Assembly (NCBI GenBank): GCA_014238155.1
Contig: JABABQ010000032.1
Location: 1 to 64,000 of the forward strand
Direction: 5' to 3'
Length of the DNA stretch: 64,000 nt
DNA from: Rhizobiaceae bacterium
GTDB lineage: Bacteria; Pseudomonadota; Alphaproteobacteria; Rhizobiales; Rhizobiaceae
A program made the position numbers and the translations under genes. Positions 43,722 through 63,779 of the stretch are shown here, piece after piece (position 1 is the stretch's first letter; the number at the start of each line of letters is the position of its first letter). The notes below the pieces were generated by a model. It saw only the letters and a program-made list of their open reading frames with translations. It made no database searches and had not been told where the DNA came from.

Positions 43722-44486
43722 TCAGCTTCTGCCAAAAGCCACTGCCTGCTTGCGCGCCTCATTCAACGCGCTTTTCACCGTCTCGCAACTGCTGGAATAA
43801 CGGCTCGAGGGGATCGGAACCGATATCGAGTGAATTTCGCCGCTCCAGTCCCTGAAAGCAAAACCGATGGCACTGATGCCCTCCGTGTGTTCGTCAAGAT
43901 CGTAAGCCAAGCCTTCTTTGCGGATCAGATTGATCAGGTCCAAATATTTCTGCCTGTTCACCGACCGACCCGTACGAAGCCATTCCGCTTCCACCAGTTT
44001 CATCAAACTGACATCGTCCATTTGAGCTAGCGCCGCGCGGCCGTTTGCAGTTGTGGTCAACGGAAACGCCTCACCTACCGATGAGACCGTGCGCAAACGG
44101 TGTAGGCCCGGCACCTGATCAAGAAAGATCATGCCGGCACCTCGCTGAACCGCCAGATCAACTGTTTCACCCGTAACTTGCGCCAGTTCCGACAGTAGCA
44201 GCCTACAACTTTCAACAATATCGTAGCGGGCATGATCGGCCATTGAGTGAAACTCCGGCCCGAGACGCAATCCACCTTCAGCGCTGGAGGCAATGACCAA
44301 CCGCTCGTCCTGCAATGCACCTACAATACGTTGCACGGTGGATCTCGGCAATCCAACCTGCCGGGCGATCTGACCAAGACTCAACCCCGTCTCGCTGTCG
44401 CGCAGGATCCTCAGGATTGCTGCGGCGCGCGCAATCACCTGAATGCCTGTAGTCCGGCGTGATTTGGCATCCACCTTGCTCATCAA
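43722..44486 (-). CDS. IclR-family transcriptional regulator
   Basis: A 254-residue IclR protein: winged helix VIARAAAILRILRDSETGL, LGQIARQVGLPRSTVQRIVG, then an effector domain with FLDQVPGLHRLRTVSSVGEA and TTTANGRAALA. It is divergent from the long catabolic operon starting at 44679, with repeated CACAATGCGG-like boxes between them, and should be its specific regulator. IclR proteins bind small aromatic or organic acids. Start may be at 44486 or 44483. Confidence 0.88.
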   Translation of the reverse strand: MMSKVDAKSRRTTGIQVIARAAAILRILRDSETGLSLGQIARQVGLPRSTVQRIVGALQDERLVIASSAEGGLRLGPEFHSMADHARYDIVESCRLLLSELAQVTGETVDLAVQRGAGMIFLDQVPGLHRLRTVSSVGEAFPLTTTANGRAALAQMDDVSLMKLVEAEWLRTGRSVNRQKYLDLINLIRKEGLAYDLDEHTEGISAIGFAFRDWSGEIHSISVPIPSSRYSSSCETVKSALNEARKQAVAFGRS

Positions 44487-44540
44487 CGGCTTTGACCCAT
44501 TCGCAGACCTCGTTTGTCAGGAGTCTTCCACAGATTGACC

Positions 44541-44603
44541 CACAATGCGGTACACTAATTCCACAATCTTGACTACAATGCAATACAGCTATACCGTATT
44601 GTG
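44541..44603. promoter_or_regulatory. Candidate IclR operator cluster
   Basis: Three related boxes: CACAATGCGGTAC at 44541-44553 (plus), ACAATGCAATACA from 44575 (plus), and on the minus strand CACAATACGGTAT at 44603-44591, matching the first at 11 of 13 positions. The last two form an inverted pair CAATAC...GTATTG. Location between iclR and its divergent operon supports a regulatory role. Confidence 0.6.
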
Positions 44604-44678
44604 ATTATTCCTGGCGAATACCCAGGAACCAACGCTGCGTTTGGGGCCCGCGAGTTCCAGCAACAGGAGGAGCGGCAG

Positions 44679-45518
44679 ATGACAATTTCAATTCGTGGCA
44701 TCGAATTTCAGGAAAATACAAACAATGATATGGGGCTGGAATTTATCAACCTGAGCCACCGCTTTGGCTATCAGTGCCCAAACTGGCCCTATTTCAAAGA
44801 CGTTGCGATTGAGCGCAAACATTACATGGCAAAGTCGGGTGTGTTGAGCCAGACGATCACCACCACAATGCATGTCACCACACACATTGATGCACCGGCC
44901 CATGTCGTGCAGGGCACGCCGTTCATCGACGAAGTCCCCCTGCCCCATTTCTTTGGCACCGGTCTGGTTGTTTCAATTCCCAAAGATAAGTGGGAGCAGA
45001 TTACCGCTGACGATCTGGAAAAGGCCTGCGGTCACGCAATCCGCAAAGGAGATGTCCTGATCATCAACACCGGTTGGCACAAGCAATATGAAGACGGCGA
45101 TTATTTCGCCTATTGTCCGGGTCTCGTTCCGTCGGCAGCTGACTGGATGGTGGAAAAGGGCGTTAAGGTGGTTGGCCACGACACCCAGGCCAACGATCAT
45201 CCGCTGGCCACAGCCATTGGCCCTCAGCGCAATGGTCCTATACTGCCGCATCTGGAGCAGGAATATTTTGACTGGTCGGGAGGAGTCGATTGGAAAGATG
45301 CTTTTCCGGAATGGGAGCCAGTACACAATAAACTGTTCTCCAACGGCATATTGGGGATTGAAAATGTTGGGGGAGATCTCGATTCAGTTACCGGCAAACG
45401 CTGCACCTTCGCCTTCTTCCCATGGAACTGGGATCGCGGTGACGGATGCATCATTCGCCTCGTGGCGATGCTCGACAAGGGCCAACAATATCGAATTGAA
45501 CCAGGCGAGGACTTTTAA
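44679..45518 (+). CDS. Cyclase-family metal-dependent hydrolase
   Basis: A 279-residue protein of the cyclase/kynurenine-formamidase fold. The metal motif HxxTHxDxPxH is present (His65, His69, Asp71, His75 in MHVTTHIDAPAHV). Members hydrolyse formamides, isatins and other cyclic or amide substrates. AGGAGG lies upstream of the ATG at 44679; a GTG at 44601 would overlap the operator and is rejected. First gene of the IclR-linked operon, followed after three bases by a cupin gene. The reaction in this pathway is not known. Confidence 0.85.
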   Translation: MTISIRGIEFQENTNNDMGLEFINLSHRFGYQCPNWPYFKDVAIERKHYMAKSGVLSQTITTTMHVTTHIDAPAHVVQGTPFIDEVPLPHFFGTGLVVSIPKDKWEQITADDLEKACGHAIRKGDVLIINTGWHKQYEDGDYFAYCPGLVPSAADWMVEKGVKVVGHDTQANDHPLATAIGPQRNGPILPHLEQEYFDWSGGVDWKDAFPEWEPVHNKLFSNGILGIENVGGDLDSVTGKRCTFAFFPWNWDRGDGCIIRLVAMLDKGQQYRIEPGEDF

Positions 45519-45521
45519 GCC

Positions 45522-45869
45522 ATGCTGGTCAACCGGTTTGTAGAAGCACAGAAATATGAAGCTCCCAACCACTGGGATGTGACCGGCCTGCGACTTCAGG
45601 GATTTGCCGAAGGCGGGCCGGAAAATCAGTGGGTGGGTCTGAGCCAGTTCCTGCCCGGCGGCGGAGCTGGTCCCGACTCAACTCCTTTTGAAAAGGTTTA
45701 TGTGGTGCTCGATGGTGAAATGACCGTCACAATTGATGGGCAGGATACGGTTCTGGGAAAATACGACTCCTGCACCATAGCCCCCCACGAGATGCGCAAG
45801 ATTGAAAACCGACGCAACGATGTTTGCGTGATGCTGGTCGTCATGCCCTATCCGCCAAAAGCAAGCTGA
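45522..45869 (+). CDS. Small cupin-domain protein
   Basis: A 115-residue single-domain cupin (LSQFLPGGGAGPDSTPFEKV, VVLDGEMTVTIDGQD and TIAPHEMRKIEN). Metal histidines are sparse: only the His in APHEMRK is in a standard place, so it may bind metal weakly or act as a non-enzymatic sensor/isomerase. Starts 4 bases after the previous stop. Likely an accessory step of the same pathway. Confidence 0.82.
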   Translation: MLVNRFVEAQKYEAPNHWDVTGLRLQGFAEGGPENQWVGLSQFLPGGGAGPDSTPFEKVYVVLDGEMTVTIDGQDTVLGKYDSCTIAPHEMRKIENRRNDVCVMLVVMPYPPKAS

Positions 45870-45880
45870 AAGGACGTCTC

Positions 45881-46684
45881 ATGAGTGGCAGTCCCCTCAC
45901 CAACCCTCTTTCCATGTTTGACGTTAAAGGCAAAGTAGCTCTGATCACCGGAGCTTCGGGCGCATTTGGTATGGTGGCAGCCCGGGTGCTTGCGGGTGCC
46001 GGATGCAGTCTTGTATTGGCCGCCGGCAATCAACAGGCATTGCAGGACATCAGCAAGGAATGCCGCGATGGTGGCGCCAGCGCCGCGGCGGTCAACGTTC
46101 GGCCGGATGACGAAGCGTCCTGTCAAAAACTGGTGGACGAAGCGGTCTCGACATTCGGCCGACTTGACATTCTGGTTGTTGCTTCTGGCATGAACAAAGT
46201 GGCCCTGATCAACGACATGGACCCTTCCACCTTTACCGATGTCATGGACGCCAACGTCACGCAAAGCTGGCTGATGGCCCGTGCGGCGGCCGGTCAGATG
46301 AAGGCCCAGGGAGAGGGCGGCAAAATTGTGCTGGTTTCCTCCGCGCGTGGTCTGTTGGGTCATCCGGCTGGATATACTGCCTATTGCGCTTCCAAGGCTG
46401 CTGTCGACGGCATGACCAAGGCGCTCGGCTGCGAATTGGGACCAACTGGCATCACAGTAAACGCCATTGCACCAACGGTGTTTCGCTCGCCTCTGACTTC
46501 CTGGATGTTTGAAGACAATGATGAGGCAAAAAAAATCCGGGCAGGATTCCTTTCTCGGGTTCCGAAGGGACGCCTTGGAGAACCCGAAGACCTTGCCGGA
46601 CCGTTGCTGTTCCTGGCGTCGAACGCGTCCGATTTCTACACCGGACACATTCTTTATGCCGACGGTGGATATACCGCCGGATGA
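45881..46684 (+). CDS. Short-chain dehydrogenase/reductase (SDR)
   Basis: A 267-residue classical SDR. It has cofactor motif TGASGAFG (23-30), active-site Tyr168 and Lys172 in YTAYCASK, and catalytic Ser in VLVSSARG. Ends with the usual GGYTAG. AAAGGA precedes the ATG at 45881; the longer frame from 45824 overlaps the cupin gene. The next gene starts within its stop codon (ATGA). Oxidation of a secondary alcohol or reduction of a ketone in the IclR-controlled pathway. Confidence 0.88.
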   Translation: MSGSPLTNPLSMFDVKGKVALITGASGAFGMVAARVLAGAGCSLVLAAGNQQALQDISKECRDGGASAAAVNVRPDDEASCQKLVDEAVSTFGRLDILVVASGMNKVALINDMDPSTFTDVMDANVTQSWLMARAAAGQMKAQGEGGKIVLVSSARGLLGHPAGYTAYCASKAAVDGMTKALGCELGPTGITVNAIAPTVFRSPLTSWMFEDNDEAKKIRAGFLSRVPKGRLGEPEDLAGPLLFLASNASDFYTGHILYADGGYTAG

Positions 46685-47613
46685 CCAACCAATCGAACTC
46701 CATTGTCGGTGTTATCGGTGCTGGCCTGATGGGTCACGGCATTGCCCTTGTAATGGCGCGGGCCGGACATCAGGTCGAAATCTGCGATCCGGTTTCCGAA
46801 TCCCGTAATACCCTGCACCACCGTGTCACTGATAGTTTGCTCAGCATAGGGGTCGATGGTTCTGAAATTACGCATATCATCTCACGCGTTTCGGTGCATC
46901 CCGACATCAAAACAACAGTTGGAAACGCCGATTTTGTTTTCGAAGCTGCTCCTGAAAAACTTGCCTTGAAACAGCAGTTATTTGCTGAAATTGAACAATA
47001 CGCGCCAGCCGATTGCATTTTGGCTTCAAACACTTCGGTGATTCAGATCAGCTTGATCATGGAAGATCTAAAAACCAAACACCGCGCTCTGGGAACCCAT
47101 TGGTGGAATCCACCACACCTAATCCCATTGGTGGAAGTCATCCGAACCAAATGGACCGATGATGCAGCAATAGAGGCTATGACAGAGTTGCTCGATGAGG
47201 CTGGTAAAACTCCTGTCACGGTAGAAAAGGACGTGCCTGGCTTCATCGGAAACCGTTTGCAACACGCGCTGTGGCGAGAGGCCATCAGCCTCGTTGAGAA
47301 CGGCATCTGTGATGCGCAAGCCGTAGATACTGTTATAAAAGCCAGCTTCGGTCGGCGCTTGGCGGTGCTCGGTCCGCTGGAGAATGCGGATTTGGTCGGC
47401 ACGGACCTGACGCTGGACATCCATGAAAATGTGTTGTTCGATTTGGAGAGCCGAAAAGGACCATCCCCCTATCTTCAGCAATTGGTGAAGGACGGCAGGC
47501 TTGGGATGAAATCGGGAGAAGGGTTTCGGCCCTGGACCGACGAAGAGGCCAATCAATTACGCGGCAAGATACCAACTTATCTGGCAGAGGTGTCGCAACT
47601 GCTGAACAAGTAA
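46681..47613 (+). CDS. 3-hydroxyacyl-CoA dehydrogenase-family enzyme
   Basis: A 310-residue single-subunit NAD enzyme. It has N-terminal GVIGAGLMGHGIALVMA, the FEAAPEKLALKQQLFAEIE region, catalytic histidine in THWWNPPHLIPLVEVI, and a C-terminal dimerisation domain. The length and the HWWNPP motif place it with stand-alone members that act on small hydroxy acids or carnitine-like substrates, not with fatty-acid FadB. With the BKACE gene downstream it could make the beta-keto acid that BKACE cleaves. Coupled to the SDR gene by a four-base overlap. Confidence 0.85.
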   Translation: MTNQSNSIVGVIGAGLMGHGIALVMARAGHQVEICDPVSESRNTLHHRVTDSLLSIGVDGSEITHIISRVSVHPDIKTTVGNADFVFEAAPEKLALKQQLFAEIEQYAPADCILASNTSVIQISLIMEDLKTKHRALGTHWWNPPHLIPLVEVIRTKWTDDAAIEAMTELLDEAGKTPVTVEKDVPGFIGNRLQHALWREAISLVENGICDAQAVDTVIKASFGRRLAVLGPLENADLVGTDLTLDIHENVLFDLESRKGPSPYLQQLVKDGRLGMKSGEGFRPWTDEEANQLRGKIPTYLAEVSQLLNK

Positions 47614-47655
47614 TTCAACGGCCGGGAAATTCCGGCAAATTATGGGAGAAACAAT

Positions 47656-48933
47656 ATGAACTGGACTCCACAAGGACTGAACCGTCGACGGTTTTTGACC
47701 ATTGCGGGTGGCAGCCTCGCTGCTCCTGCGGTCCTACGCTCAACCCGCGCTTACGCCGCCGACCCAACCATTAAAATTGGTTATGTCAGCCCCAAAACAG
47801 GGCCCCTGGCAGGTTTTGCAGAGGCCGATGATTTCATCATCAAGGGATTGACCGAAAAATTCGCGTCCGGCATCGCTAATAATGGCAAGAACTGGAACAT
47901 CGAAATTCACGTTCGTGACAGCCAGTCGAATCCAAACCGCGCTTCTGAAGTTGCTTCGGAATTGTTGCTCGGCGAAGAAGTTGACATCATAACCGCTGCA
48001 GCAACGCCCGACACAACCAATCCGGTTGCTGATCAGGCTGAAGTCAACGGCACTCCCTGCATCACCACCGACTGTCCCTGGCAGCCCTATTTCTTTGGTC
48101 GTAACGGCAATCCCGCAGAAGGATTTGAAAACACCTTTCACTTCTTCTGGGGCCTGGAAGATGTGATCGGTGCATTTCTCGATATGTGGGGCGGTTCAGG
48201 CGTCGCCAAGAAAGTTGGGGGCCTGTTTCCCAATGATGCTGATGGCAATGCCTGGGGTGATCCAAATCTCGGTCTGCCAAAACCATTTGCAGGGGCTGGC
48301 TACGAACTAACCGATCCGGGTCGCTATCAGCCGTTGAGCGATGATTTTTCGAGCCAGATTCAGGCATTCAAAAACGCCGGTTGTGAAATCGTCACAGGCG
48401 TGATGATCCCGCCTGACTTTGCGACATTTTGGTCGCAGGCGGCCCAGCAGGGTTTCAATCCAAAGATTGTCACTATTGGTAAGGCGCTATTGTTCCCATC
48501 GGTGATCGATTCTCTCGGCGACCGGGGTAACGGTCTTTCTTCTGAAGTCTGGTGGTCACCCAACCATCCGTTCTCGTCTTCACTCACCGGCGTTTCTGCC
48601 CGTGACCTTGCAGACGGTTATACTAAGGACACCGGCAAACAGTGGACGCAGCCAATTGGCTTCCGCCACGCATTGTTTGAAGTTGTGGCAGATGTTGTGT
48701 CGCGCGCAGAAGACCTTGAAAGCCCTGAATCGGTGACAGCGGCCATTGCAGCCACCAAATTGAACACCATGGTTGGCCCCGTAGACTGGTCCAACGGGCC
48801 GGTAAGAAATGTATCAAAAACCCCATTGGTATCTGGTCAGTGGCAGAAGGAAGGCGACAATTACGATCTCAAGATCGTCGCCAATGCCGCCGCGTCAAAT
48901 ATTCCGATCACGGGCGAACTAAAACTTCTGTAG
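47656..48933 (+). CDS. Branched-chain-type ABC binding protein, Tat-exported
   Basis: A 425-residue periplasmic type I binding protein (LivK-like). The twin-arginine signal NRRRFLTIAGG is followed by a hydrophobic stretch and AYAADP, so it is exported folded. Domain motifs such as IKIGYVSPKTGPLAGFAEAD and EVDIITAAATPDTTNPVAD are typical. It is separated from the ATPase gene by a hairpin (48944-48971). Substrate is presumably the compound degraded by the surrounding enzymes, such as an aromatic or organic acid. Confidence 0.9.
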   Translation: MNWTPQGLNRRRFLTIAGGSLAAPAVLRSTRAYAADPTIKIGYVSPKTGPLAGFAEADDFIIKGLTEKFASGIANNGKNWNIEIHVRDSQSNPNRASEVASELLLGEEVDIITAAATPDTTNPVADQAEVNGTPCITTDCPWQPYFFGRNGNPAEGFENTFHFFWGLEDVIGAFLDMWGGSGVAKKVGGLFPNDADGNAWGDPNLGLPKPFAGAGYELTDPGRYQPLSDDFSSQIQAFKNAGCEIVTGVMIPPDFATFWSQAAQQGFNPKIVTIGKALLFPSVIDSLGDRGNGLSSEVWWSPNHPFSSSLTGVSARDLADGYTKDTGKQWTQPIGFRHALFEVVADVVSRAEDLESPESVTAAIAATKLNTMVGPVDWSNGPVRNVSKTPLVSGQWQKEGDNYDLKIVANAAASNIPITGELKLL

Positions 48934-48943
48934 TCCAATCTGT

Positions 48944-48971
48944 TTTGGCGGGGTGACACTGCTCCGCCAAA
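48944..48971 (+). terminator. Hairpin after the binding-protein gene
   Basis: TTTGGCGG and CCGCCAAA are perfect arms; the downstream sequence is ATACATGATCTTTC with a T-rich tract shortly after. Probably a partial terminator or stabiliser that raises binding-protein levels relative to the rest of the transporter. Confidence 0.55.
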
Positions 48972-49034
48972 TACATGATCTTTCTATTTTGTGCGGCACT
49001 GCGCTGACATAAATTATTCGGTATTGCTGACCTC

Positions 49035-49781
49035 ATGACCACCATTCTCAAGCTGGACAAACTGTCGAAAGCCTTCGGAGCGGTGATTGTGTCCGACGAC
49101 ACTACTTTTGGTGTGGAAGAGGGAGAAGCACTTGGCATTATCGGTCCGAATGGGGCGGGCAAAACGTCGATGTTTAATCTGGTAACTGGTACGCTGACGC
49201 CGGATTCCGGTCGCATCGAATTTCTCGGGCAGGACATAACCAGGCAAAGCGCCGCGTGGCGGTGTCGCGCAGGAATGTCGCGCAGTTTCCAAGTACCGCA
49301 GCCTTTTGGCGGCCTTTCCGTGTATGAAAACGCCCTCGTCGCCGCCACCCAGGGTGCAGGTTTGAAAGGCCATGCAGCGGAAAAATTATGCCTCGATGTG
49401 CTGGAAGATACCGGGCTGTTGGACAAGGCAAACACTCTGGCAGGTTCGTTGACATTACTGGATCGCAAGCGACTCGAGCTCACAAGAGCGCTTTGCGCAA
49501 AACCGAAATTACTGTTGCTGGATGAAATAGCTGGTGGTTTGACCGAAGCCGAGTGTGTCTCATTGGTCGACACGATCAAGGCAATCCACAAAAGCGGAAT
49601 TTCGATCATCTGGATAGAGCATGTTGTGCATGCCCTGCTTGCGGTTGTTGACCGCCTGGCAGTGATCGATTTTGGGCGTTTGATCGCTGAAGGAGAGCCC
49701 AAACAAATAATGGCGAGCAAGCAGGTACAGGAAATCTATCTGGGTATCGAAGTCGATTCGGAGATGGATGCTCATGAGTGA
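49035..49781 (+). CDS. Branched-chain-type ABC ATPase (LivG-like)
   Basis: A 248-residue ATPase with Walker A IIGPNGAGKTSMFN, Q-loop region, and Walker B LLLLDEIAGGL. The usual signature is replaced by LTLLDRKRLELTRAL, a form found in some LivG-type subunits that lack a canonical LSGGQ. It overlaps the LivF-like start. First ATPase of the pair. Confidence 0.88.
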   Translation: MTTILKLDKLSKAFGAVIVSDDTTFGVEEGEALGIIGPNGAGKTSMFNLVTGTLTPDSGRIEFLGQDITRQSAAWRCRAGMSRSFQVPQPFGGLSVYENALVAATQGAGLKGHAAEKLCLDVLEDTGLLDKANTLAGSLTLLDRKRLELTRALCAKPKLLLLDEIAGGLTEAECVSLVDTIKAIHKSGISIIWIEHVVHALLAVVDRLAVIDFGRLIAEGEPKQIMASKQVQEIYLGIEVDSEMDAHE

Positions 49782-50478
49782 TTTTGAACTTTGTGTCGCC
49801 CAGTTGGAAGCCCACTATGGTGACTTTCAGGCGTTGTTTGGCATTGATTTCAACGTGTCAAAAGGTGAAGTCATCGCAGTCATTGGATCGAACGGTGCGG
49901 GGAAATCAACATTGATGCGTTCGATCAGCGGTTTGATGACCAATGGCGCTTCTCAAGTGATATTTCAGGGGGAGCCGATTGGTGCTTTGCGTGCCGATGA
50001 GGTTGCCGCTCGAGGTATCGCGCTGGTTCCCGAAGGGCGACAATTGTTTCCGTCCCTTTCGGTTGAGGAAAATCTTATCATCGGTAGCCAGATCGGCAGA
50101 ACTGGCTTCTGGTCTTTGCAGCGAGTCCATGAACTGTTCCCGATATTGCAGGAACGACGTCACCAGCCGTCCACATCGCTCTCAGGTGGCCAGCAACAGA
50201 TGGTTGCAATTGGTCGTGCCTTGATGGCCAATCCTGACCTGCTATTGCTGGATGAAGTCAGCCTCGGCCTCGCTCCGGTGGTGATCAAGTCAATTTATGA
50301 AGCGCTTCCCCGAATTATTGAAGGCGGCATGAGCGCAGTCATCGTCGAACAGGATATATCAAAAGCACTTTCAGTATCGACCCGTTTTTATTGCCTTCAG
50401 GAAGGCCGGGTGTCGCTGGAGGGCAAGTCCGGCAGCCAGACACGCGAAGAAATTTCCCGCGCCTATTTCGGAGTTTGA
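49774..50478 (+). CDS. Branched-chain-type ABC ATPase (LivF-like)
   Basis: A 234-residue ATPase: Walker A VIGSNGAGKSTLMRS, signature SLSGGQQQMVAIGRAL, Walker B LLLLDEVSLGL. Short and of LivF length. The ATG at 49774 has GGAG-like sequence upstream and lies inside the LivG-like gene, giving translational coupling. Cytoplasmic, with the LivG-like subunit. Confidence 0.9.
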   Translation: MSDFELCVAQLEAHYGDFQALFGIDFNVSKGEVIAVIGSNGAGKSTLMRSISGLMTNGASQVIFQGEPIGALRADEVAARGIALVPEGRQLFPSLSVEENLIIGSQIGRTGFWSLQRVHELFPILQERRHQPSTSLSGGQQQMVAIGRALMANPDLLLLDEVSLGLAPVVIKSIYEALPRIIEGGMSAVIVEQDISKALSVSTRFYCLQEGRVSLEGKSGSQTREEISRAYFGV

Positions 50479-50483
50479 CGCAG

Positions 50484-51347
50484 ATGGATTGGATAAATTC
50501 TATCGTTCAGGGCGTTCTGCTTGGCGGGTTATACGCCATGATTGCCGCCGGACTGTCGTTGATATTCGGGGTTATGCGGCTTGTAAATATCGCCCATGGT
50601 GACTTGATCATTCTGGCCGCCTATCTTGGATTGACCGTTGCAACGGCGCTTGGGTTGTATCCTCTGATTGCCCTGCTCATCATTGTCCCGGTGATGGCCA
50701 TTATTGGCTATATCTTGCAGCGGGTTATCCTGAACAACACTTTGAGCGATGATATCCTGCCGCCGCTTCTTGTGACATTTGGCCTGTCGGTAATCATCCA
50801 AAATGCACTGCTGGAAATCTATTCCGCCGACCCGCAAAAAATGGATCCTGGTGCACTGGGAACCGCCAGCGCAAATATCGGTGGAATTTCCGTCGGCCTG
50901 TTGCCCCTGTTGATGTTTGCAACCGCAATTGTGGTGATCGCCGGGTTGCAGTTCATATTTTATCGTACGGCTTTGGGGCGGGCATTTCGCGCCGTCTCCG
51001 ACAATCAGGAAGTGGCCCAATTGATGGGCCTCAACAAACGTCACGTTTATGGTCTGGCGATGGCTCTATCGCTGGCTGTCGTTGCCATTGCTGGCATATT
51101 TTTGGGCATGCGCACCAGTTTCGATCCATCGATTGGTGGAGGTCGCCTGATTTTTGGATTTGAAGCGGTTATCATAGGCGGGCTGGGGAATTTATGGGGG
51201 ACCTTGATTGGAGGGGTGATCCTCGGTGTTGCGCAAAACATCGGCGCTCAAATCAATCCCGGATGGCAGGTGTTGGCTGGCCACGTGGTGTTTTTGGTGA
51301 TCCTCGCGTTCCGACCACGCGGGCTGTTTCCGCGAATGACGGGGTGA
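50484..51347 (+). CDS. Branched-chain-type ABC permease (LivH-like)
   Basis: A 287-residue membrane protein with the LivH N terminus SIVQGVLLGGLYAMIAAGLS, LIFGVMRLVNIAHGDLI, and the conserved AVSDNQEVAQLMGLN loop. The longer frame from 50391 lies within the LivF gene and is not used; ATG 50484 is right after the LivF stop. Eight or so helices. Confidence 0.9.
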   Translation: MDWINSIVQGVLLGGLYAMIAAGLSLIFGVMRLVNIAHGDLIILAAYLGLTVATALGLYPLIALLIIVPVMAIIGYILQRVILNNTLSDDILPPLLVTFGLSVIIQNALLEIYSADPQKMDPGALGTASANIGGISVGLLPLLMFATAIVVIAGLQFIFYRTALGRAFRAVSDNQEVAQLMGLNKRHVYGLAMALSLAVVAIAGIFLGMRTSFDPSIGGGRLIFGFEAVIIGGLGNLWGTLIGGVILGVAQNIGAQINPGWQVLAGHVVFLVILAFRPRGLFPRMTG

Positions 51348-51348
51348 T

Positions 51349-54251: not shown

Positions 54252-54252
54252 A

Positions 54253-55275: not shown

Positions 55276-55388
55276 CTCGAAGCCGGTGTCAATTGCCAGA
55301 GCGCAGGGGACACGACTTGCGGTCACCGGCAAGCTGCGATATTTATCAAACGATAACCAGAGCCGTTCACCATAAAATGAGGCAGGCC

Positions 55389-56603: not shown

Positions 56604-56617
56604 GGGCACAATCATCA

Positions 56618-57151
56618 ATGAGCGATTTGGCTTCTTCCGAAAAAGACCTTTCTGACCCAGTGGAAACAGAATTCGACCCGCGATTGCTGCGCGATGCGCT
56701 GGGCAGTTTTGCAACCGGTGTTACAATCATAACGGCAGCCGGTGACAATGGTCTGCGCGTTGGTCTGACCGCCAATTCATTCTCGTCTGTGTCTCTCAAT
56801 CCGGCATTGGTATCATGGAGCCTTGCTTCCCATGCACCCAGTATGCCGGTTTTTCAAAATTGCTCACATTTTTCAATCCACGTTCTCAAACGCGACCAGG
56901 AAGAACTGGCCATCCGCTTTTCCCAATCTCGTGATGACAAGTTTGACGGGGTGAATGTGAAGGAGGGCTTGGGTGGAGCACCCGTCCTAGCCGAGTGCCT
57001 GGCCAGTTTTCAATGCCGCAATGCCTATCGCCATGCCGGTGGAGATCACATAATTTTTCTGGGCGCTGTCGAGAAGTTCGAAGTTGATGGCGGCGCACCT
57101 TTGATTTTTCATCGTGGAAAGTTTGGCGATTTGATGCAACAGGAGGGATAG
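56618..57151 (+). CDS. Flavin reductase, component of the monooxygenase
   Basis: A 177-residue FMN/FAD reductase of the HpaC/HsaB family. The flavin-binding GSFATGVTIITA, GLTANSFSSVSLNPALVSWS and HSIHV-like (HFSIHVLKRDQ) segments are standard. It supplies reduced flavin to the oxygenase immediately upstream. Confidence 0.9.
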   Translation: MSDLASSEKDLSDPVETEFDPRLLRDALGSFATGVTIITAAGDNGLRVGLTANSFSSVSLNPALVSWSLASHAPSMPVFQNCSHFSIHVLKRDQEELAIRFSQSRDDKFDGVNVKEGLGGAPVLAECLASFQCRNAYRHAGGDHIIFLGAVEKFEVDGGAPLIFHRGKFGDLMQQEG

Positions 57152-57152
57152 G

Positions 57153-57650
57153 TTGGAAATCATGGTTGAAAAAAAGAAACAATTCGATGTCATATTTGAA
57201 GGTGTTGGCACCACCGGCCCCAATATGCGTAACGACATCTCGGTTGAATGGCCGATGATGAAAGAAAAATTCGAACTGGCCACAGATGAAGGCCCGTTTC
57301 ACGGTGGAGATGGCACCGCACCGCCGCCGCTTGCATTGTTTACTGCCGCGCTGACTGGTTGTCTGATGACCCAGATCCGGGCATTCGCCAAACGCCTTAA
57401 GATCGAAGTCGAAAATGTTGAGGTCAAAGCGCGGCTGCACTGGCGAGGCGAACAGCACGGAATGGAGCCTTATGTGACATCACCGGTTGGATTTGGGCTG
57501 GACGTTGATATTGATTCAGACGCCTCTGGCGAGCAACTGAAACATTTGCTGGAATGCGCCAAAAAGGGATGCTTTATTGAACAAACTCTGGCTCAAGGTC
57601 TGATTGTTGACCACAGGCTTATGCTGGACGGTGAATGGCACGACGCCTGA
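57153..57650 (+). CDS. OsmC-family protein
   Basis: A 165-residue OsmC/Ohr-type protein. LALFTAALTGCLMTQI carries the first conserved Cys and ECAKKGCFIEQTL the second. OsmC proteins reduce organic peroxides, but some clusters use them as pathway hydrolases of thioesters. The start is TTG 57153, six bases after AGGAGG; ATG 57162 would have poor spacing. Cotranscribed with the monooxygenase genes. Confidence 0.85.
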   Translation: MEIMVEKKKQFDVIFEGVGTTGPNMRNDISVEWPMMKEKFELATDEGPFHGGDGTAPPPLALFTAALTGCLMTQIRAFAKRLKIEVENVEVKARLHWRGEQHGMEPYVTSPVGFGLDVDIDSDASGEQLKHLLECAKKGCFIEQTLAQGLIVDHRLMLDGEWHDA

Positions 57651-57675
57651 AGGCGCGCCAAGTAGGATACAGCCC

Positions 57676-58323
57676 ATGAGTGAGACAGCCCAGGCCAAGC
57701 CACGCAAAAAACGCCTTTCTTCCACCGAAAGGCGGGCGGAATTCATTACCAAGGCCATCGAATTTTTTGCCGAAGAGGGATTTGAAAGCAGCACCCGCGA
57801 CCTGGCCAAACATCTGGGCGTCACGCAACCGCTGCTGTACCGTTATTTTCCCAGCAAAAATGATCTCATCAAGGAAGTCTACCAAACGGTCTATCTAAAC
57901 CGGTGGCGCGAAGAATGGGACATTTTGCTGTGTGACAGAGAGCGCCCCTTACGAGAACGGCTACAGACATTTTATGAAGCCTATACCGACGCAATATTCA
58001 CCCGCGAATGGATGCGTATTTTTCTGTTCTCCGGCCTCAAGGGTGTTGAAATCAACCGGTGGTATGTGGGGCTGGTCAACGAGCGAATCCTCAACCGCAT
58101 CCTGACGGAATACCGGTTCGAAAACGGAGATAGTTCTGATCGCCAAGCAACACCGGAAGAACTGGAGCTTGCCTGGGTGATGCACGGCGGAATTTTCTAC
58201 TATGGCATTCGAAAGCATATCTACGAATCGCCTGTACTCGCTGATAAATCCCGAATGATTTCGGACGCACTCGATGTGTTTTTGATGGGAATTGGTGAGA
58301 CTGGTTCAGCTTTTAAAGACTAA
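57676..58323 (+). CDS. TetR-family transcriptional regulator
   Basis: A 215-residue TetR protein. Helix-turn-helix near 20-65 (ITKAIEFFAEEGFESSTRDL, LGVTQPLLYRYFPSKNDLI) and an all-helical ligand domain. ATG 57676 follows AGGATA; the frame from 57604 overlaps the OsmC gene. Being the last gene of the monooxygenase operon, it is likely autoregulated through 55254-55275 and acts on 59065-59086. Confidence 0.88.
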   Translation: MSETAQAKPRKKRLSSTERRAEFITKAIEFFAEEGFESSTRDLAKHLGVTQPLLYRYFPSKNDLIKEVYQTVYLNRWREEWDILLCDRERPLRERLQTFYEAYTDAIFTREWMRIFLFSGLKGVEINRWYVGLVNERILNRILTEYRFENGDSSDRQATPEELELAWVMHGGIFYYGIRKHIYESPVLADKSRMISDALDVFLMGIGETGSAFKD

Positions 58324-58345
58324 ATGCCTGTGTTGTTACCACCAC

Positions 58346-58864
58346 TTATGCGCCACCACGCGCTGGATAGTTATTCTCAACTGCAAACGGCACTTTTGAC
58401 AGCAGGAACTCAAGGTCGGGGCGCGCCCATGGCATATTGGACACGTCAACCATATAAAGACGTCCATCTGGCCGCACCCAGAACAGACCAGGCTCACAAA
58501 ATGTGTCGGCTTCGGCGTCCTTGATCGCTTTGGAAATATAAAGGCCCCAGGCTCGGGCGTCTGATTCCGACAGACCATAGCCAACGGTCAGGCCGTCAAG
58601 TTGCCAATCACTGGCGGTCTGTTTGGCGAGGTCTTCGTCATTCATTGAGATGGCAATCGTTGAAAACCCAGCTTCCTCATAGCCCGTCTGCAATGTCAAA
58701 AGCTTCTGCAGATAGGATTTGCAAACCGGACAATGCAAGCCTCGGTAAAAAATTACCATAGTAAAATTCTTCGGCGATTGCGCCGACAATTCCCAGTTAT
58801 CGCCGGCAACAGTATTTACACTAAGCGCGGGCACCTGCGCGTTTGGAGTGAGCATGACTGACAT
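58346..58864 (-). CDS. Peroxiredoxin-like (AhpC/TSA) protein
   Basis: A 172-residue thioredoxin-fold protein of the AhpC/TSA group. The active site reads FYRGLHCPVCKSYLQKL with a CxxC. PxxxT is not seen in the usual place (RGLHCPVC), so it belongs to the alkyl hydroperoxide-like group with CPVC. It is convergent with the TetR gene and divergent from the molybdenum hydroxylase operon. Probably a redox-protection role beside two oxidising enzymes. Confidence 0.82.
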   Translation of the reverse strand: MSVMLTPNAQVPALSVNTVAGDNWELSAQSPKNFTMVIFYRGLHCPVCKSYLQKLLTLQTGYEEAGFSTIAISMNDEDLAKQTASDWQLDGLTVGYGLSESDARAWGLYISKAIKDAEADTFCEPGLFWVRPDGRLYMVDVSNMPWARPDLEFLLSKVPFAVENNYPARGGA

Positions 58865-59064
58865 TGTTTATTTCCCTATATTGGCACCGGTCAAAGCGGG
58901 TGCACCCTCAAGTTTTCTGTAAATTTGGTTCCGTTGTCGCGGATCAATTTGGCAATCGACAAGATTTGACGAACCTGTTGTTGGCCACTCGACAACCTCC
59001 CGAACCTTCAAATTGGCCCGTGCAACGGGTGCATCTGCAAAAAATTCCAATTCTGACCATCGGC

Positions 59065-59086
59065 TTATTTATAAATCGATAAATAA
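59065..59086. promoter_or_regulatory. TetR-type operator, copy 2
   Basis: 22 bases: TTATTTATAAA then TCGATAAATAA. Its reverse complement matches 55254-55275 at 20 of 22 positions. Located about 70 bases upstream of the molybdenum hydroxylase operon and 200 upstream of the peroxiredoxin-like gene. Confidence 0.75.
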
Positions 59087-59155
59087 AGGATATAGAAGGA
59101 ACAGGCAACATACTCACCAGGAAGTGATGATGCCGTACGGCACCAGGAGGCGTGT

Positions 59156-60007
59156 ATGAAAGCTGCCGATTTTGACTATCAACGACCATCGAATTTGGAG
59201 GCTGCGCTAGATCTTTTAGACGACGAGTCAGGAGATGTTCAGGTTCTGGCTGGCGGCCAAAGTTTGATGCCGATGATGAATTTTCGTCTGGCGCAACCAG
59301 AACTGCTGGTCGACCTGAATGGCCTGGAAGACCTGCAGTTTATTCGCGAGGCTGATGGACACATTCAAATCGGGTCAATGACACGCTATTGCGAATTGGA
59401 AAACTCACCGTTGATCCAACAGCATGTGCCGCTTTTCTCCAAAGCCCTACCCCATATTGCCCATGTGGCAATCAGAAACCGTGGAACAATCGGCGGGAGC
59501 ACGGCGCTTGCTGATCCGGCCGCTGAAATGCCGGCGCTGTTGATTGCACTTGATGCTATTATCGTCGCCCGCTCCCGCCATGGTGAGCGCTCGATCAAGG
59601 CAGCGGAGTTTTTTCTCGGGCTGTACGAAACCGCCCTGGAAATGGGTGAGTTGATTGCATCGATATCCATTCCAATATCCGAAGCCGGTTGTGAATGTGG
59701 ATTTTATGAACTGGCGCGCCGCCACGGCGATTATGCCATGGCCGGCGTGGCCATCACGGTGCAGACGACCAATCCCATCAGCGAAGCCCGCGTTGTATTT
59801 TTTGCGGTGAGCGATCGAGCCACCCGAACCGAGGCAGTCGAAAATCAGTTGAACGGAGTGTCCACATTGGCAGGAGAGGAAATGAAAAATGCGATGGAAG
59901 AAATAGGCAAACTGGATTTTCACGGTGATCTGAACGCCGACATTGCCACCAAACAACATCTCGCCAAAGTCGTATTCAAGCGAGCGATTGCGGAGATTTT
60001 TTCTTGA
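59156..60007 (+). CDS. Molybdenum hydroxylase, FAD-binding medium subunit (CoxM/CutM-like)
   Basis: A 283-residue FAD subunit. Flavin-binding motifs AGGQSLMPMMNFRLA near residue 32 and TIGGSTALADPAAEMP near 104 are conserved. Same domain order as CoxM. Followed by the Fe-S and molybdopterin subunits with four-base overlaps, so the three make one enzyme. Confidence 0.9.
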   Translation: MKAADFDYQRPSNLEAALDLLDDESGDVQVLAGGQSLMPMMNFRLAQPELLVDLNGLEDLQFIREADGHIQIGSMTRYCELENSPLIQQHVPLFSKALPHIAHVAIRNRGTIGGSTALADPAAEMPALLIALDAIIVARSRHGERSIKAAEFFLGLYETALEMGELIASISIPISEAGCECGFYELARRHGDYAMAGVAITVQTTNPISEARVVFFAVSDRATRTEAVENQLNGVSTLAGEEMKNAMEEIGKLDFHGDLNADIATKQHLAKVVFKRAIAEIFS

Positions 60008-60483
60008 TAAACAGCCAGAACATCTCGTTAGTCGTCAATGGCGAACCAGTTTCAGCCTCAGTTCCCAATCGCACCAATCTGGTGGATTTCTTGCGCAATC
60101 AATTGGGTTTGACCGGATCACATGTCGGCTGCGAACACGGGGTTTGCGGAGCCTGCACATTGGAAGTCAACGGCTCAATGATCCGGGGTTGCTTGATGCT
60201 GGCCGTTCAGGCAGACGGCGCGGAAATTACTACGGTTGAAGGTTTCACCAGCCGAGACAAAGCAGCACAACTGCAGCGCTCCTTTCAGAAAAACAACGCT
60301 CTGCAATGCGGCTATTGCACCCCCGGCATGTTGGCCAGTGCGTTGGAATATGTTGAAGCGGGAGGCGGAGCTGATCGCGCCGCCATTCGCCAACATCTCT
60401 CCGGCAACTATTGTCGCTGCACCGGTTACCAGTCAATTGTAGATGCCGTGGTTGACGTAATTGAACAGGGAGCAAAGCAATGA
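60004..60483 (+). CDS. Molybdenum hydroxylase, 2Fe-2S small subunit (CoxS-like)
   Basis: A 159-residue subunit with two 2Fe-2S clusters: C43, C48, C51 and C63 (CEHGVCGACT plus Cys) and C102, C105, C137, C139 (CGYC and CRC). Starts at TTG 60004 overlapping the previous stop; GGAG-like upstream is weak. Electron path between FAD and Mo subunits. Confidence 0.92.
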   Translation: MINSQNISLVVNGEPVSASVPNRTNLVDFLRNQLGLTGSHVGCEHGVCGACTLEVNGSMIRGCLMLAVQADGAEITTVEGFTSRDKAAQLQRSFQKNNALQCGYCTPGMLASALEYVEAGGGADRAAIRQHLSGNYCRCTGYQSIVDAVVDVIEQGAKQ

Positions 60484-62858
60484 GCGGCCCGCTAACCCTG
60501 TTTGACAAGCCCAATTCCTATATCGGCAAATCAGTGCCGCGTCCCGATGCGCGGCGCCTCGTGGAGGGGCGCGGCAAATATGTTGACGATCTGCAACTGC
60601 CGAGAATGCTGCATGCAGCGTTTGTCCGTTCTCCCCATGCTCACGCCGAGATTGGTATCATTGACACGGCGGCAGCAACCGCCCTGCCCGGCGTAATTGC
60701 CGCATACACTGCAACCGATCTTGCCGATCACGTCAGCCCCTATGTCGGTATTCTCACCCATCTGCAGGGTCTGCGCTCGCCACCGCAAATGCCTCTGGCC
60801 GTAGATCGGGCGCGCTGGCAGGGAGAACCGGTGGTGATGATTGTAGCGCAGAGCCGCGCAATAGCAGAAGATGCCTGCGAGTTGGTCGAGATTGACTTTC
60901 ATACGCTGGAGGCAACTTGCGACGCCAAAACCGCCCTGCAAGACGATGCTCCGGTGATTCACGCGGAATTTGACAGTAACCTCGCCTGGCAACGCACGGT
61001 TGATGCCGGAAATGTTGAAGAAGCCTTCAACCGCGACGATGTCACCGTGATCGAACGGGAATTCACTTTTGGCCGTCATACCGGCGTTACTCTGGAACCA
61101 CGGGCCTCGGTGGTCGAATATGATCCATCGGAAGAAGTGCTGACTTATCATTATTCCGGTCAGGCTCCTCATATGATGCAGGCTGTACTGGCCAAACATC
61201 TGAGACTATTGGAAGAGAATGTGCGCATCATCGCGCGGGATGTCGGCGGATCATTCGGCATTAAAATTCACACCTATGGCGACGACGTCGCAACTGCAGC
61301 AGCGGCAAAAATTCTTGGACGCCCGATAAAATTCATCGCCGATCGAAATGAAAGCTTTGTTTCGGATATTCATGCCCGCGATCACACGGTGCGCGGGCGT
61401 CTGGCAGTTGATGCAGAAGGAAAGATAGCAGCACTTGAAATTGATGATCTGACCGGCATCGGTCCTTACAGCATGTATCCGCGCACATCGGCGATCGAAT
61501 GCAATCAAATCCTCAATCTGACAGGCGCGCCTTATGCGATTGATAACTATCGGGCGCGAGGGACCGTCGTTTTCCAGAACAAGAACATGATGTGTCAGTA
61601 TCGGGCTGTCGGCCATCCCGTGGCGATGGCGGTCGCCGATGGACTGCTGGAAGAGGCAGCCCATAAAATTGGCATGGATGTGGTTGATATTCGACGCCAC
61701 AACTTGTTTGCCGATAATGCCTATCCGACAAACTCTGCTGCAGGGATGAAATTTGACGATCTGTCGCATCAAAAAGCGCTCGAGAAATTGGTCAAATTTA
61801 TGGATTACGACGCGTTGCGTCAGAATCAGACTGAAGCACGAACTCAAAACGTTTATCGGGGAATTGGCCTGGTTTCCATGGTCGAAGTGACCAATCCCAG
61901 TCCGATGTTTTATGGCATTGGCGGAGCGCCGATTTCTGCTCAGGACGGGGCCAGTGTCAGACTGGACGCGGCAGGTGCGCTGCATGTTTCAGCCTCAATT
62001 ACCGAACAGGGACAAGGCACCAATACAATCATTGCCCAGATCTCAGCTGGTGTGTTTGGTGTGGATATTGATCGGGTTAAAGTGACTACCGGGGACACGG
62101 CGACCACCCCCTATGGTGGCGGCACTTGGGCATCACGCGGAGCAGGAATTGGCGGCGAAGCCGTTTTGCAGGCCTCCCATGCTTTGAAGCAACAGGTTCT
62201 GGATGTAGCGGGGGTGATACTGCAGGCTGTTTCAGATCAACTGGATATCGTGGACGGACACGTGGTCGACAAAGATGCTGGCACGCAGCGAATCTCACTC
62301 GCGGATTTGGGGAAAATTGTCTATTATCGAGGCAATGAACTTCCCGCCGATGTGACACCGGAACTGATTGCCACCCGCCATTACCGCGTCACCGACTTCC
62401 CTTTCGTTTTTACCAATGGCGCGATGGCTGCCCATGTCGAAGTCGATGTCGAAACCGGCTTTGTAAAAGTTTTGAACTTCTGGGCTGTTGAAGACTGCGG
62501 GCGGGTGATCAATCCCAAATTGGTGGATGAGCAAATCAGAGGTGGCGTTGTGCAAGGCATAGGTGGTGCGCTCTACGAGGAATGTATCTATTCCCCAGAT
62601 GGTCAGTTGCAAAATGCTTCAATGGCCGACTATCTGGTGCCGATGGCTGCGGAAATGCCGGATATCCACATTGACCATATCGAGACTCCCACCAAAACAT
62701 CGGTCCTTGGTGCTAAGGGTGCGGGTGAAGCTGGTACAGGTGGCGCGCCTGCCGCAATCATGAACGCCGTCAACGACGCGCTTCGACCGCTGAGTACATC
62801 GCTGCATCAGATGCCGATGACCCCGCAAAGGATACTCAAAGCCCTGGGGAAAGTTTAG
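60480..62858 (+). CDS. Molybdenum hydroxylase, molybdopterin large subunit (CoxL-like)
   Basis: A 792-residue xanthine-dehydrogenase-family subunit. DVGGSFGIK (254-262), GAGIGGEAVLQ and GAKGAGEAGTGGAP with the catalytic glutamate are present. The active-site loop reads QYRAVGHP (373-380). That is neither the AYRCSFR of aerobic CO dehydrogenase nor the AYRGAGR of form II, so CO oxidation is unlikely. Aldehyde or N-heterocycle hydroxylation is more probable. Starts in the CoxS-like stop codon. Confidence 0.9.
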   Translation: MSGPLTLFDKPNSYIGKSVPRPDARRLVEGRGKYVDDLQLPRMLHAAFVRSPHAHAEIGIIDTAAATALPGVIAAYTATDLADHVSPYVGILTHLQGLRSPPQMPLAVDRARWQGEPVVMIVAQSRAIAEDACELVEIDFHTLEATCDAKTALQDDAPVIHAEFDSNLAWQRTVDAGNVEEAFNRDDVTVIEREFTFGRHTGVTLEPRASVVEYDPSEEVLTYHYSGQAPHMMQAVLAKHLRLLEENVRIIARDVGGSFGIKIHTYGDDVATAAAAKILGRPIKFIADRNESFVSDIHARDHTVRGRLAVDAEGKIAALEIDDLTGIGPYSMYPRTSAIECNQILNLTGAPYAIDNYRARGTVVFQNKNMMCQYRAVGHPVAMAVADGLLEEAAHKIGMDVVDIRRHNLFADNAYPTNSAAGMKFDDLSHQKALEKLVKFMDYDALRQNQTEARTQNVYRGIGLVSMVEVTNPSPMFYGIGGAPISAQDGASVRLDAAGALHVSASITEQGQGTNTIIAQISAGVFGVDIDRVKVTTGDTATTPYGGGTWASRGAGIGGEAVLQASHALKQQVLDVAGVILQAVSDQLDIVDGHVVDKDAGTQRISLADLGKIVYYRGNELPADVTPELIATRHYRVTDFPFVFTNGAMAAHVEVDVETGFVKVLNFWAVEDCGRVINPKLVDEQIRGGVVQGIGGALYEECIYSPDGQLQNASMADYLVPMAAEMPDIHIDHIETPTKTSVLGAKGAGEAGTGGAPAAIMNAVNDALRPLSTSLHQMPMTPQRILKALGKV

Positions 62859-62864
62859 GGTTGG

Positions 62865-63779
62865 TCAACCAGACAAGGCATCCATTTGTCCGCGATACCA
62901 ATCGCCGATCTCGCTGGCGGTCATCCAGCAAACTCCTTCATGACCACCGATATAGTCGAACAATTCTTCCAGATAACGGATGCGATGCGGCACGCCGGTA
63001 ATGTAGGGGTGCATGGAAATTGCCATGATGCGTGCATTGTCCGCACTCTCCTGGTAGAGCCGGTCAAACTGGTCGATACCACGGCGCAGCAGTTCATCCG
63101 AACGATGTTGTTGTAACGCATAGACGGCAATATCGTTTGTCTCCACCGTATAGGGAATCGTGGTAATCATACCAAACGGCGTCTCGATATCCTGTGGCAG
63201 ATCGTCAATCACCCAGTCCGCGACATATTCAATACCGTGCTGGCGCAGCAGATCCAGCGTTTCATCGGTTTCCGTCAGTCCCGGACATTCCCAGGAACGC
63301 GGTGCAACACCGCAAAAATCGGCCAGAGAATCGACAGTATTGGCAATGGCCTGGGATTGATTTTCCAATTTATGGGTCGGCCCCTGCAGGAAGCCGTGCC
63401 CCATAAATTCCCAACCTGCCTCTTTGCCCGCTGAGGCGACGCGTGGATAGGAGTTGCAAACATTGCCGTTGATTGCCAGGGTCGTTGGAATATTCCGATC
63501 GGTCAACGCCTTATATTGCCGCCAGAAACCGGACCGCATGCCGTATTCGTGCCAAGACCAGTTGGGAATGTCGGGCAGCAAAGGCTGCCCCATTGGGGGA
63601 GGCAGAACTGTGCGTGGCATCGGTTTTTCAATCTGCCATTCTTCGACATTCAAAATCACCCAGACAGCCATTCGTTTGCCGTGGGCAAACTGAAGTTTTG
63701 GGCGGTCAACAATCGCCTGATAGGGTATCCGGTCGGTCAGACGCATCGCTGAGCAGCCATAGATGAGCCAATCGCACAT
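62865..63779 (-). CDS. Polysaccharide deacetylase-family protein (PuuE/allantoinase-like)
   Basis: A 304-residue NodB-fold protein of the PuuE-like branch, whose members hydrolyse cyclic amides such as allantoin as well as sugar N-acetyl groups. Segments RIPYQAIVDRPKLQF, MAVWVILNVEEWQ, WEFMGHGFLQGP, and the late SMHPYITGVPHR fit that branch. ATG at 63779 or 63746 is possible; neither has a good ribosome site, and a longer frame to 63878 gives an unlikely hydrophobic N terminus. Convergent with the molybdenum hydroxylase operon. Confidence 0.75.
   Translation of the reverse strand: MCDWLIYGCSAMRLTDRIPYQAIVDRPKLQFAHGKRMAVWVILNVEEWQIEKPMPRTVLPPPMGQPLLPDIPNWSWHEYGMRSGFWRQYKALTDRNIPTTLAINGNVCNSYPRVASAGKEAGWEFMGHGFLQGPTHKLENQSQAIANTVDSLADFCGVAPRSWECPGLTETDETLDLLRQHGIEYVADWVIDDLPQDIETPFGMITTIPYTVETNDIAVYALQQHRSDELLRRGIDQFDRLYQESADNARIMAISMHPYITGVPHRIRYLEELFDYIGGHEGVCWMTASEIGDWYRGQMDALSG

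Follow-up and report, generated by a model that had tools for sequence, protein, structure and literature searches.

Two adjacent, separately inherited catabolic modules in a Rhizobiaceae genome: a predicted reductive phloroglucinol ring-opening route beside an unrelated oxidation module

Do the catabolic genes at positions 43722–63779 of a 64,000-nucleotide stretch of DNA from a Rhizobiaceae bacterium (contig JABABQ010000032.1 of assembly GCA_014238155.1, positions 1 to 64,000; the whole stretch is called the window here) serve one pathway or more than one? The initial annotation had described a single catabolic island with one route for a probably aromatic or N-heteroaromatic compound, a route that it did not recognise as a described pathway. 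That the stretch is catabolic and devoted to aromatic compounds is very probably right. The single island does not survive a comparison of gene order in other genomes, in which its halves are not conserved together. The reading proposed here, to which a probability of roughly 0.86 is given, is that the stretch consists of two adjacent, separately inherited catabolic modules, of which module 1 (43722–53317) is a reductive phloroglucinol ring-opening route and module 2 (53364–63779) an unrelated oxidation module. Module 1 is strongly predicted to follow the chemistry of the phloroglucinol route; phloroglucinol itself is proposed as the exact substrate with slightly less confidence, because two residue marks of the clostridial enzymes, an arginine of the reductase and a tryptophan of the cleavage enzyme, differ.

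Window proteins were assigned to families by Pfam and NCBIfam profile scans. In the Pfam scan all of the families already named were recovered in place: two PF04199 cyclases, a cupin, a short-chain dehydrogenase/reductase (SDR), a 3HCDH protein (HCDH), five Liv-type genes, a BKACE protein, an MBL-fold hydrolase, a monooxygenase with its flavin reductase, an OsmC protein and a three-subunit molybdenum hydroxylase. The stretch also holds IclR, TetR and AhpC/TSA genes. Several of the listed open reading frames (ORFs) start too early, and the starts given here are inner ATG codons picked by eye for minimal overlap with the preceding gene. The genes observed in module 1 are:

43722–44486, minus strand: IclR-family regulator, divergent from the rest of module 1 (Pfam).
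44679–45518, plus strand: first cyclase-family protein (PF04199), predicted dihydrophloroglucinol cyclohydrolase (DPGC); ORF open from 44601.
45522–45869, plus strand: cupin without the usual metal ligands, paired with the SDR (Pfam).
45881–46684, plus strand: SDR, predicted phloroglucinol reductase (PGR), with 5g4k and 5g4l as best solved relatives; ORF open from 45824.
46681–47613, plus strand: HCDH-family protein, predicted (S)-3-hydroxy-5-oxohexanoate dehydrogenase (TfD) (Pfam).
47656–48933, plus strand: Liv-type periplasmic binding protein (Pfam).
49035–49781, plus strand: Liv-type ATPase, LivG-like (Pfam, NCBIfam).
49768–50478, plus strand: Liv-type ATPase, LivF-like (Pfam, NCBIfam).
50484–51347, plus strand: Liv-type permease, LivH-like (Pfam); ORF open from 50391.
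51349–52389, plus strand: Liv-type permease, LivM-like (Pfam).
52382–53317, plus strand: BKACE, predicted 3,5-dioxohexanoate (triacetate):acetyl-CoA cleavage enzyme (NF053538 equivalog).

Those of module 2 are:

53364–54251, plus strand: MBL-fold hydrolase, the first gene of the module (Pfam); ORF open from 53199.
54253–55206, minus strand: second cyclase-family hydrolase, Cyc2 (PF04199; 233 bits to 5ibz; 81% identical to a gene of plasmid pRL8).
55389–56603, plus strand: HsaA-like flavin monooxygenase, oxygenase component with an acyl-CoA-dehydrogenase fold (Pfam); ORF open from 55293.
56618–57151, plus strand: flavin reductase (Pfam), found in the detached module 2 copy L192 and not in L193 or L194.
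57153–57650, plus strand: OsmC-like protein (Pfam; NF041052 at 118.7 bits, cut-off 95).
57676–58323, plus strand: TetR regulator (Pfam); ORF open from 57604.
58346–58864, minus strand: AhpC/TSA-type redox protein (Pfam), found in the detached copy L194 and not in L192 or L193.
59156–60007, plus strand: molybdenum hydroxylase FAD subunit, CoxM type (Pfam).
60004–60483, plus strand: molybdenum hydroxylase 2Fe-2S subunit, CoxS type (Pfam).
60480–62858, plus strand: molybdenum hydroxylase large subunit (Pfam), with quinoline 2-oxidoreductase as nearest solved structure.
62865–63779, minus strand: PuuE/polysaccharide-deacetylase-like hydrolase (Pfam); ORF open from 63878.

The inheritance of the two modules was followed in 80 loci around BKACE relatives of at least 76% identity (the best 80 of 447), where a gene was counted as present if a match of at least 40% identity covered more than 30% of the query, and in 15 genomes of the window's genus, which were compared for Cyc2. 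Downstream of BKACE, a single locus (L021) of the 68 that extend at least 5 kb beyond this gene has any module 2 gene. Cyc2 is present in six of the 15 genus genomes. The modules touch in G000, the genome of the window, in G003 and in G008, the last of which has one extra gene between them that reads as PhyH-like from its sequence alone. Module 2 lies without module 1 beside it in G001, G006 and G009, in the order MBL, Cyc2, monooxygenase, OsmC, TetR, CoxMSL, deacetylase. These detached copies are each incomplete, the flavin reductase not being found in G006 and G009 and AhpC not being found in G001 and G006. Module 1 of G006 lies about 1.33 Mb from module 2; in G009 a different contig holds a partial BKACE match at 78%, so that module 1 may exist there in pieces that do not adjoin module 2; and in G010, which has module 1, Cyc2 is not found at 1e-60. 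Outside the genus, L131, from another family of the same order, carries module 2 minus the MBL and deacetylase genes, and L132 has CoxLSM, AhpC, TetR, OsmC and Cyc2, the monooxygenase and its reductase being absent. Each module has its own regulator (IclR versus TetR) and a different type of transporter nearby (Liv versus TRAP).

The contact of the two modules in three genus genomes would suit a single pathway, in which module 2 turned a larger aromatic compound into phloroglucinol for module 1 to open. The patchy distribution of Cyc2, the module 2 copies that stand alone, the module 1 without Cyc2 in G010, the near absence of module 2 genes from the 68 loci and the separate regulators and transporter types all argue against it, and such a joint pathway is very unlikely. 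A place for the MBL hydrolase in module 1, for instance in hydrolysing triacetic lactone, was likewise considered and dropped: this gene heads module 2 in the three detached copies, and the window protein has no match at 1e-4 in the cassette of Aminobacter, where another MBL-fold gene is present.

Within module 1, the genes from the first cyclase through to BKACE overlap or are separated by gaps of at most 101 bases, which is consistent with an operon. A five-gene core of first cyclase, cupin, SDR, HCDH and BKACE is complete in 66 of the 80 loci. In 62 loci it is accompanied by the full set of five Liv genes, and in 56 all 11 genes from IclR to BKACE stand in exactly the order of the window, so that the clustering of module 1 is not due to chance. 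Counted singly, the IclR gene and the cupin are each present in 67 loci and the SDR in 68. Eight of the 14 loci without a complete core have less than 8 kb of upstream sequence (L024, L041, L054, L060, L065, L092, L095 and L098), and three (L038, L051 and L061) are missing just the cupin and the SDR. The importer is exchanged whilst the core is retained, being of the Liv type in the window, MFS in Novosphingobium and TRAP (a DctM-type gene adjoining the core) in L027 and L035, the latter with additional weak Liv-type matches some 7 kb further on. A variable importer beside a constant core is as expected if the core defines the substrate.

What would this core do? The catalytic steps that follow, together with the roles given to importer and regulator, are predictions. 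The Liv-type ABC importer would take up phloroglucinol or a compound yielding phloroglucinol, and the SDR, working together with the small cupin, would reduce it to dihydrophloroglucinol. The first cyclase would then hydrolyse the ring by retro-Claisen C–C cleavage to give 3-hydroxy-5-oxohexanoate, which the HCDH-family enzyme would oxidise to triacetate (3,5-dioxohexanoate). From triacetate and acetyl-CoA, BKACE would form acetoacetate and acetoacetyl-CoA, and the acetoacetate could be activated by an acetoacetyl-CoA synthetase whose gene lies outside the window. This is the route whose enzymes PGR, DPGC, TfD and TAL have been characterised in Clostridium scatologenes and with which it was rebuilt in vitro (Zhou et al. 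2023, PMC10470551), and the cluster has already been reported in marine alpha- and gammaproteobacteria, Mesorhizobium loti and Bradyrhizobium (PMC10470551). The suggestion that the route was not a described one fails for module 1, which matches a described pathway by homology. Module 1 would be an instance of that route, and what is new is the cupin without the usual metal ligands that precedes the reductase.

The individual enzymes support this assignment. BKACE scores 523.6 bits against NF053538, the equivalog for 3,5-dioxohexanoate:acetyl-CoA cleavage (cut-off 430); among 200 genomes from the phylum (its own included) 21 exceed this cut-off, and among 14 controls none. For the SDR, 5g4k and 5g4l, both titled phloroglucinol reductase, score 186 and 184 bits and the next solved SDR 142, and a PTVFRS-LT-WMF stretch is common to the SDR and the clostridial phloroglucinol reductase. 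The chains of these two entries are also the top three structural matches to the SDR model, a ranking that serves as supporting evidence only, the model having a pLDDT of 75.1. The first cyclase carries the metal motif HVTTHIDAPAH at 91–101 and, as the W-P-Y pair W62 and Y64 (cyclase and SDR residues are counted from the open ORF starts at 44601 and 45824), the Trp/Tyr that DPGC has where isatin hydrolase has Ile/Leu (PMC10470551); W62, Y64 and the H-TTHIDAPAH stretch are at least 98% conserved in a set of 74 sequences. In the cyclase of Acetoanaerobium noterae the pair stands at W20/Y22, the same numbers as reported for CsDPGC (PMC10470551). The HCDH protein keeps S119, H140 and N191, matched by motif rather than by alignment to Ser122, His143 and Asn194 of CsTfD, which are termed catalytic or stereo-specific (PMC10470551). 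A synthetase that passes the acetoacetyl-CoA synthetase model is present in the same genome, at 1003 bits against a cut-off of 520.9.

Other assignments of these enzymes fared poorly. Vitamin B6 degradation was rejected on 226.4 of 500 bits for FHMPC dehydrogenase and 32.5 of 325 bits for 4-pyridoxolactonase, and arylformamidase of the kynurenine pathway (TIGR03035) on 49.3 of 223.05 bits for the first cyclase, the second having no NCBIfam match at 0.001. The HCDH and BKACE families pair in carnitine degradation, and a carnitine-like route had been put forward as an alternative on the strength of this pairing. However, the HCDH protein reaches just 136.3 of 414 and 154.2 of 592 bits on two carnitine dehydrogenase models, BKACE fits another equivalog, NF053538, and a cyclase and an SDR are not known to have a place in the carnitine route, so that almost no weight is left to this explanation.

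The tie between the cupin and the reductase extends beyond the BKACE loci. Seven genomes whose BKACE locus is without SDR and cupin were searched for an SDR elsewhere at 1e-60, and those of L038, L051 and L061 (three of three) each have a relative 72 to 75% identical with a cupin directly in front and IclR close. In A. noterae, too, a cupin precedes the SDR. An alignment of 41 cupins and the AlphaFold model of the cupin (pLDDT 89.8) show a cupin barrel nearest to TM1459, and a fold search returned only general cupins (TM1459, DddK, RemF and KdgF), none of which indicates a function. On our reading of the cupin motifs, the positions that usually hold the metal ligands carry Asp52, Thr54, Lys58 and Arg92; Arg92 is invariant and Lys58 nearly so in a 44-row set. 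Seven of the 31 plasmid records with a cupin match were examined, of which four have phloroglucinol-type clusters and three place the cupin near another enzyme set, composed of an intradiol-type dioxygenase, an SDR, a BKACE and a zinc alcohol dehydrogenase (Rhizobium, Bosea and Skermanella). This second type of cluster (L202:3377-7333, L203:3377-7351 and L204:183-7390) may represent a hydroxyquinol route with BKACE cleavage as its last step. Judged from their listings, literature searches brought up no paper apparently describing a cupin in a phloroglucinol pathway, or an aerobic or Rhodobacteraceae phloroglucinol cluster. Phloroglucinol degradation is mentioned in PMC12203004 and PMC8084988; in the main text of the C. 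scatologenes paper the word cupin occurs 0 times (PMC10470551), though its Fig. 8 could still show one.

A more specific reading of the cupin can be framed in three parts. Firstly, proteobacteria and at least one clostridial species may use it as a fifth component dedicated to the reductive breakdown of phloroglucinol. Secondly, its barrel, with Asp52, Thr54, Lys58 and Arg92, may bind the polyphenol or enolate and pass the keto tautomer to the reductase. Thirdly, a changed cofactor loop in the reductase may permit the use of NADH, so that the NADH of the next dehydrogenase would pay for the reduction. Taken jointly, these parts are doubtful; if they were true, ring opening would be redox-neutral without oxygen.

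Several observations weigh against the assignment of module 1 to phloroglucinol. SDR residues 66–69 are AAGN, where 5g4k (Clostridium) has TGRN and A. noterae TGRT, and the arginine is also missing from the SDR relatives of Aminobacter, Novosphingobium and Mycobacterium. The arginine of TGRN probably corresponds to that of the conserved TR(S/N) NADPH motif (PMC10470551), an equation that is our own reading, and it marks the cofactor rather than defining the pathway. Since the SDR is without it, its cofactor may differ from that of the clostridial reductase, and NADH would be a guess. BKACE has Ile18 where CsTAL reportedly has Trp16 and A. noterae has Trp. Glu14 of the aminohexanoate enzyme, which presumably sits directly after TGA, is lost in both the window BKACE and CsTAL. 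The remaining four of the seven genomes searched, namely G029 and those of three Paracoccus records, have no SDR at 1e-60. In the Paracoccus records (L068, L082 and L100) a BKACE 79% identical stands alone, with no first cyclase, cupin, SDR or HCDH nearby at 40% identity, and this BKACE may therefore serve other routes too; G029 keeps cyclase, HCDH and BKACE, which means that the route is incomplete in some genomes. The acetoacetate CoA-transferase model stays below its cut-off in the window's own genome (76.8 versus 128.5), and PF18089, the phloretin/DAPG hydrolase that yields phloroglucinol from flavonoids, has no match there, nor in any control, which leaves this negative uninformative. The activity of module 1 and growth on phloroglucinol are themselves predictions only.

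The altered cofactor loop and the Ile for Trp, both unlike the clostridial enzymes, would also fit a module that applies this reductive, retro-Claisen chemistry to a closely related compound, for example phloroglucinol bearing an alkyl, acyl or carboxy group or a different meta-polyphenol, and takes phloroglucinol itself only as a side substrate. So would the conserved cupin, which goes unmentioned in the main text on C. scatologenes (PMC10470551), and the Liv importer, which by itself is unspecific. Set against these are a BKACE that passes the equivalog for 3,5-dioxohexanoate, a product of the unsubstituted ring, a reductase that shares PTVFRS-LT-WMF with the clostridial enzyme and a cyclase that keeps Trp/Tyr. 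A relative as the true substrate is unlikely, and phloroglucinol remains the preferred assignment for module 1.

Turning to module 2, it is predicted with low confidence to oxidise an aromatic or N-heteroaromatic acid and to open it by hydrolysis, in association with the TetR regulator and with TRAP genes at and past the window end. Its tools would be the molybdenum hydroxylase, the two-component flavin monooxygenase, the second cyclase and the MBL and deacetylase-like hydrolases. Beyond the window, the contig carries the rest of a DctP gene whose start lies in the final bases of the window, then a transposase (L200:3635-5029) and DctQ/DctM genes. The transposase is located about 1.8 kb beyond the deacetylase gene, and its neighbours on either side, DctP and DctQ/DctM, are genes of TRAP transporters.

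The N-heteroaromatic substrate proposed for the whole stretch is conceivable for module 2 only. There, the molybdenum hydroxylase might oxidise the ring carbon adjoining the nitrogen of an N-heteroaromatic carboxylic acid and the two-component monooxygenase introduce a hydroxyl group, after which the cyclase and the deacetylase-like protein would open the ring and OsmC and AhpC remove peroxides. The large subunit is closest to quinoline 2-oxidoreductase (1t3q, 444 bits; the next two, at 400 and 332, are both CO dehydrogenases), TRAP genes lie near module 2 in G000, G001, L131 and L132, and on pRL8 and an Ancylobacter plasmid the regions around Cyc2 relatives also contain TetR, a molybdenum hydroxylase and a gene of the histidinol dehydrogenase family. 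However, the large subunit stays below every NCBIfam cut-off, and the hydroxylase on pRL8 and in Ancylobacter shares just 32% identity. The closest matches of the monooxygenase are phenol and steroid-phenol hydroxylases (NF045629, HsaA, 320.7 of 450 bits; 2rfq, 213 bits), no flavin reductase was found next to it in G006 and G009, and none of the five G006 neighbours scanned is a TRAP gene. This substrate is a possibility to be held tentatively.

Aerobic CO dehydrogenase was rejected for the large subunit, which scores 433.9 of 991.15 and 520.6 of 950 bits on CoxL models. The gene previously called allantoinase-like does resemble PuuE and polysaccharide deacetylases, but with 109.6 bits on TIGR03212 (cut-off 424.6) it is not allantoinase PuuE, and the name stands for a resemblance only. 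A TetR gene 56–60% identical adjoins Cyc2 on three plasmids, and the monooxygenase matches no plasmid record at 1e-90. The neighbourhoods of more distant Cyc2 relatives in Rhodococcus DK17 (49%) and Streptomyces (48.6%) are uninformative. A histidinol-dehydrogenase-family gene, often accompanied by an SDR, recurs in the vicinity of Cyc2 relatives (L137:7564-12262, L132:18111-19418, L133:8300-9607 and L198:2544-6006), and the L137 region additionally has deacetylase-like and MBL genes.

Some further observations concern related cassettes and the surroundings of module 1. On a Mycobacterium riyadhense plasmid (L173:8408-12739) an SDR, a partial HCDH match, a cyclase, a cupin, a shorter BKACE and IclR occur together. 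In Aminobacter sp. MSH1 (L172:13060-14374) an MBL-fold gene unlike that of the window takes the expected place of LivK, after a short LivK-like stretch. Directly before module 1, on the minus strand at 39919–43457 of the window, is a phosphonate-type ABC transporter (binding protein, ATPase and two permeases). Further away, at 18761–29724, glutamine-synthetase-family, P450, DAO/GCV_T (dimethylglycine-dehydrogenase-like) and MTTB-family genes are grouped, which suggests methylamine or betaine use.

With this division, an apparently unknown pathway becomes a testable assignment. Phloroglucinol is a building block of plant and algal phenols, and records titled Rhodobacteraceae, Ruegeria, Rhizobium, Devosia and others carry a cassette that would open its ring with no oxygenase involved; this is relevant to what becomes of phlorotannins and flavonoids. 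Two questions are thereby isolated, namely the role of the reductase-linked cupin and the compound consumed by module 2.

Among known systems, the C. scatologenes cluster groups enzymes of the same four families with a regulator and a transporter. Module 1 differs from it in its Liv-type ABC importer (the paper names a major family transporter), its IclR regulator, the cupin tied to the reductase, the cofactor loop without Arg, and a BKACE that has Ile for Trp and belongs to the longer NF053538 subfamily. In Acetoanaerobium noterae DSL2 (L201), cupin, SDR, HCDH, cyclase and BKACE run in one direction and are 44, 39, 47, 35 and 34% identical to their window counterparts, whereas the gene order differs, the SDR has the cofactor-loop Arg, and the BKACE has Trp after TGA and reaches 228.1 of 430 bits for NF053538. 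Module 2 shares its oxygenase and reductase families with HsaAB and p-hydroxyphenylacetate hydroxylase, but its oxygenase falls below the cut-offs for both (320.7 of 450 bits for HsaA, as above, and 239.9 of 650 for the hydroxyphenylacetate oxygenase), and no ring-cleavage dioxygenase, in contrast to HsaAB-type systems, is among the module 2 genes scanned. The region pRL80021-38 on pRL8 of Rhizobium leguminosarum 3841 resembles module 2 in its cyclase (81% identical), its TetR (60%) and the presence of a CoxMSL hydroxylase, the last 32% identical over the 303 residues compared. It differs in having SDR and histidinol-dehydrogenase-family genes rather than the monooxygenase and OsmC, and a Liv importer rather than TRAP. 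According to the study of that region, its cyclase was taken for an N-formylkynurenine formamidase, CO and amino acids were considered as substrates, the cyclase gene is induced in the pea rhizosphere, and coxG, coxM and pRL80026 mutants are less competitive there (PMC3333776). The module 2 cyclase is kin to a gene in a region that this study describes as important for competitiveness in the pea rhizosphere.

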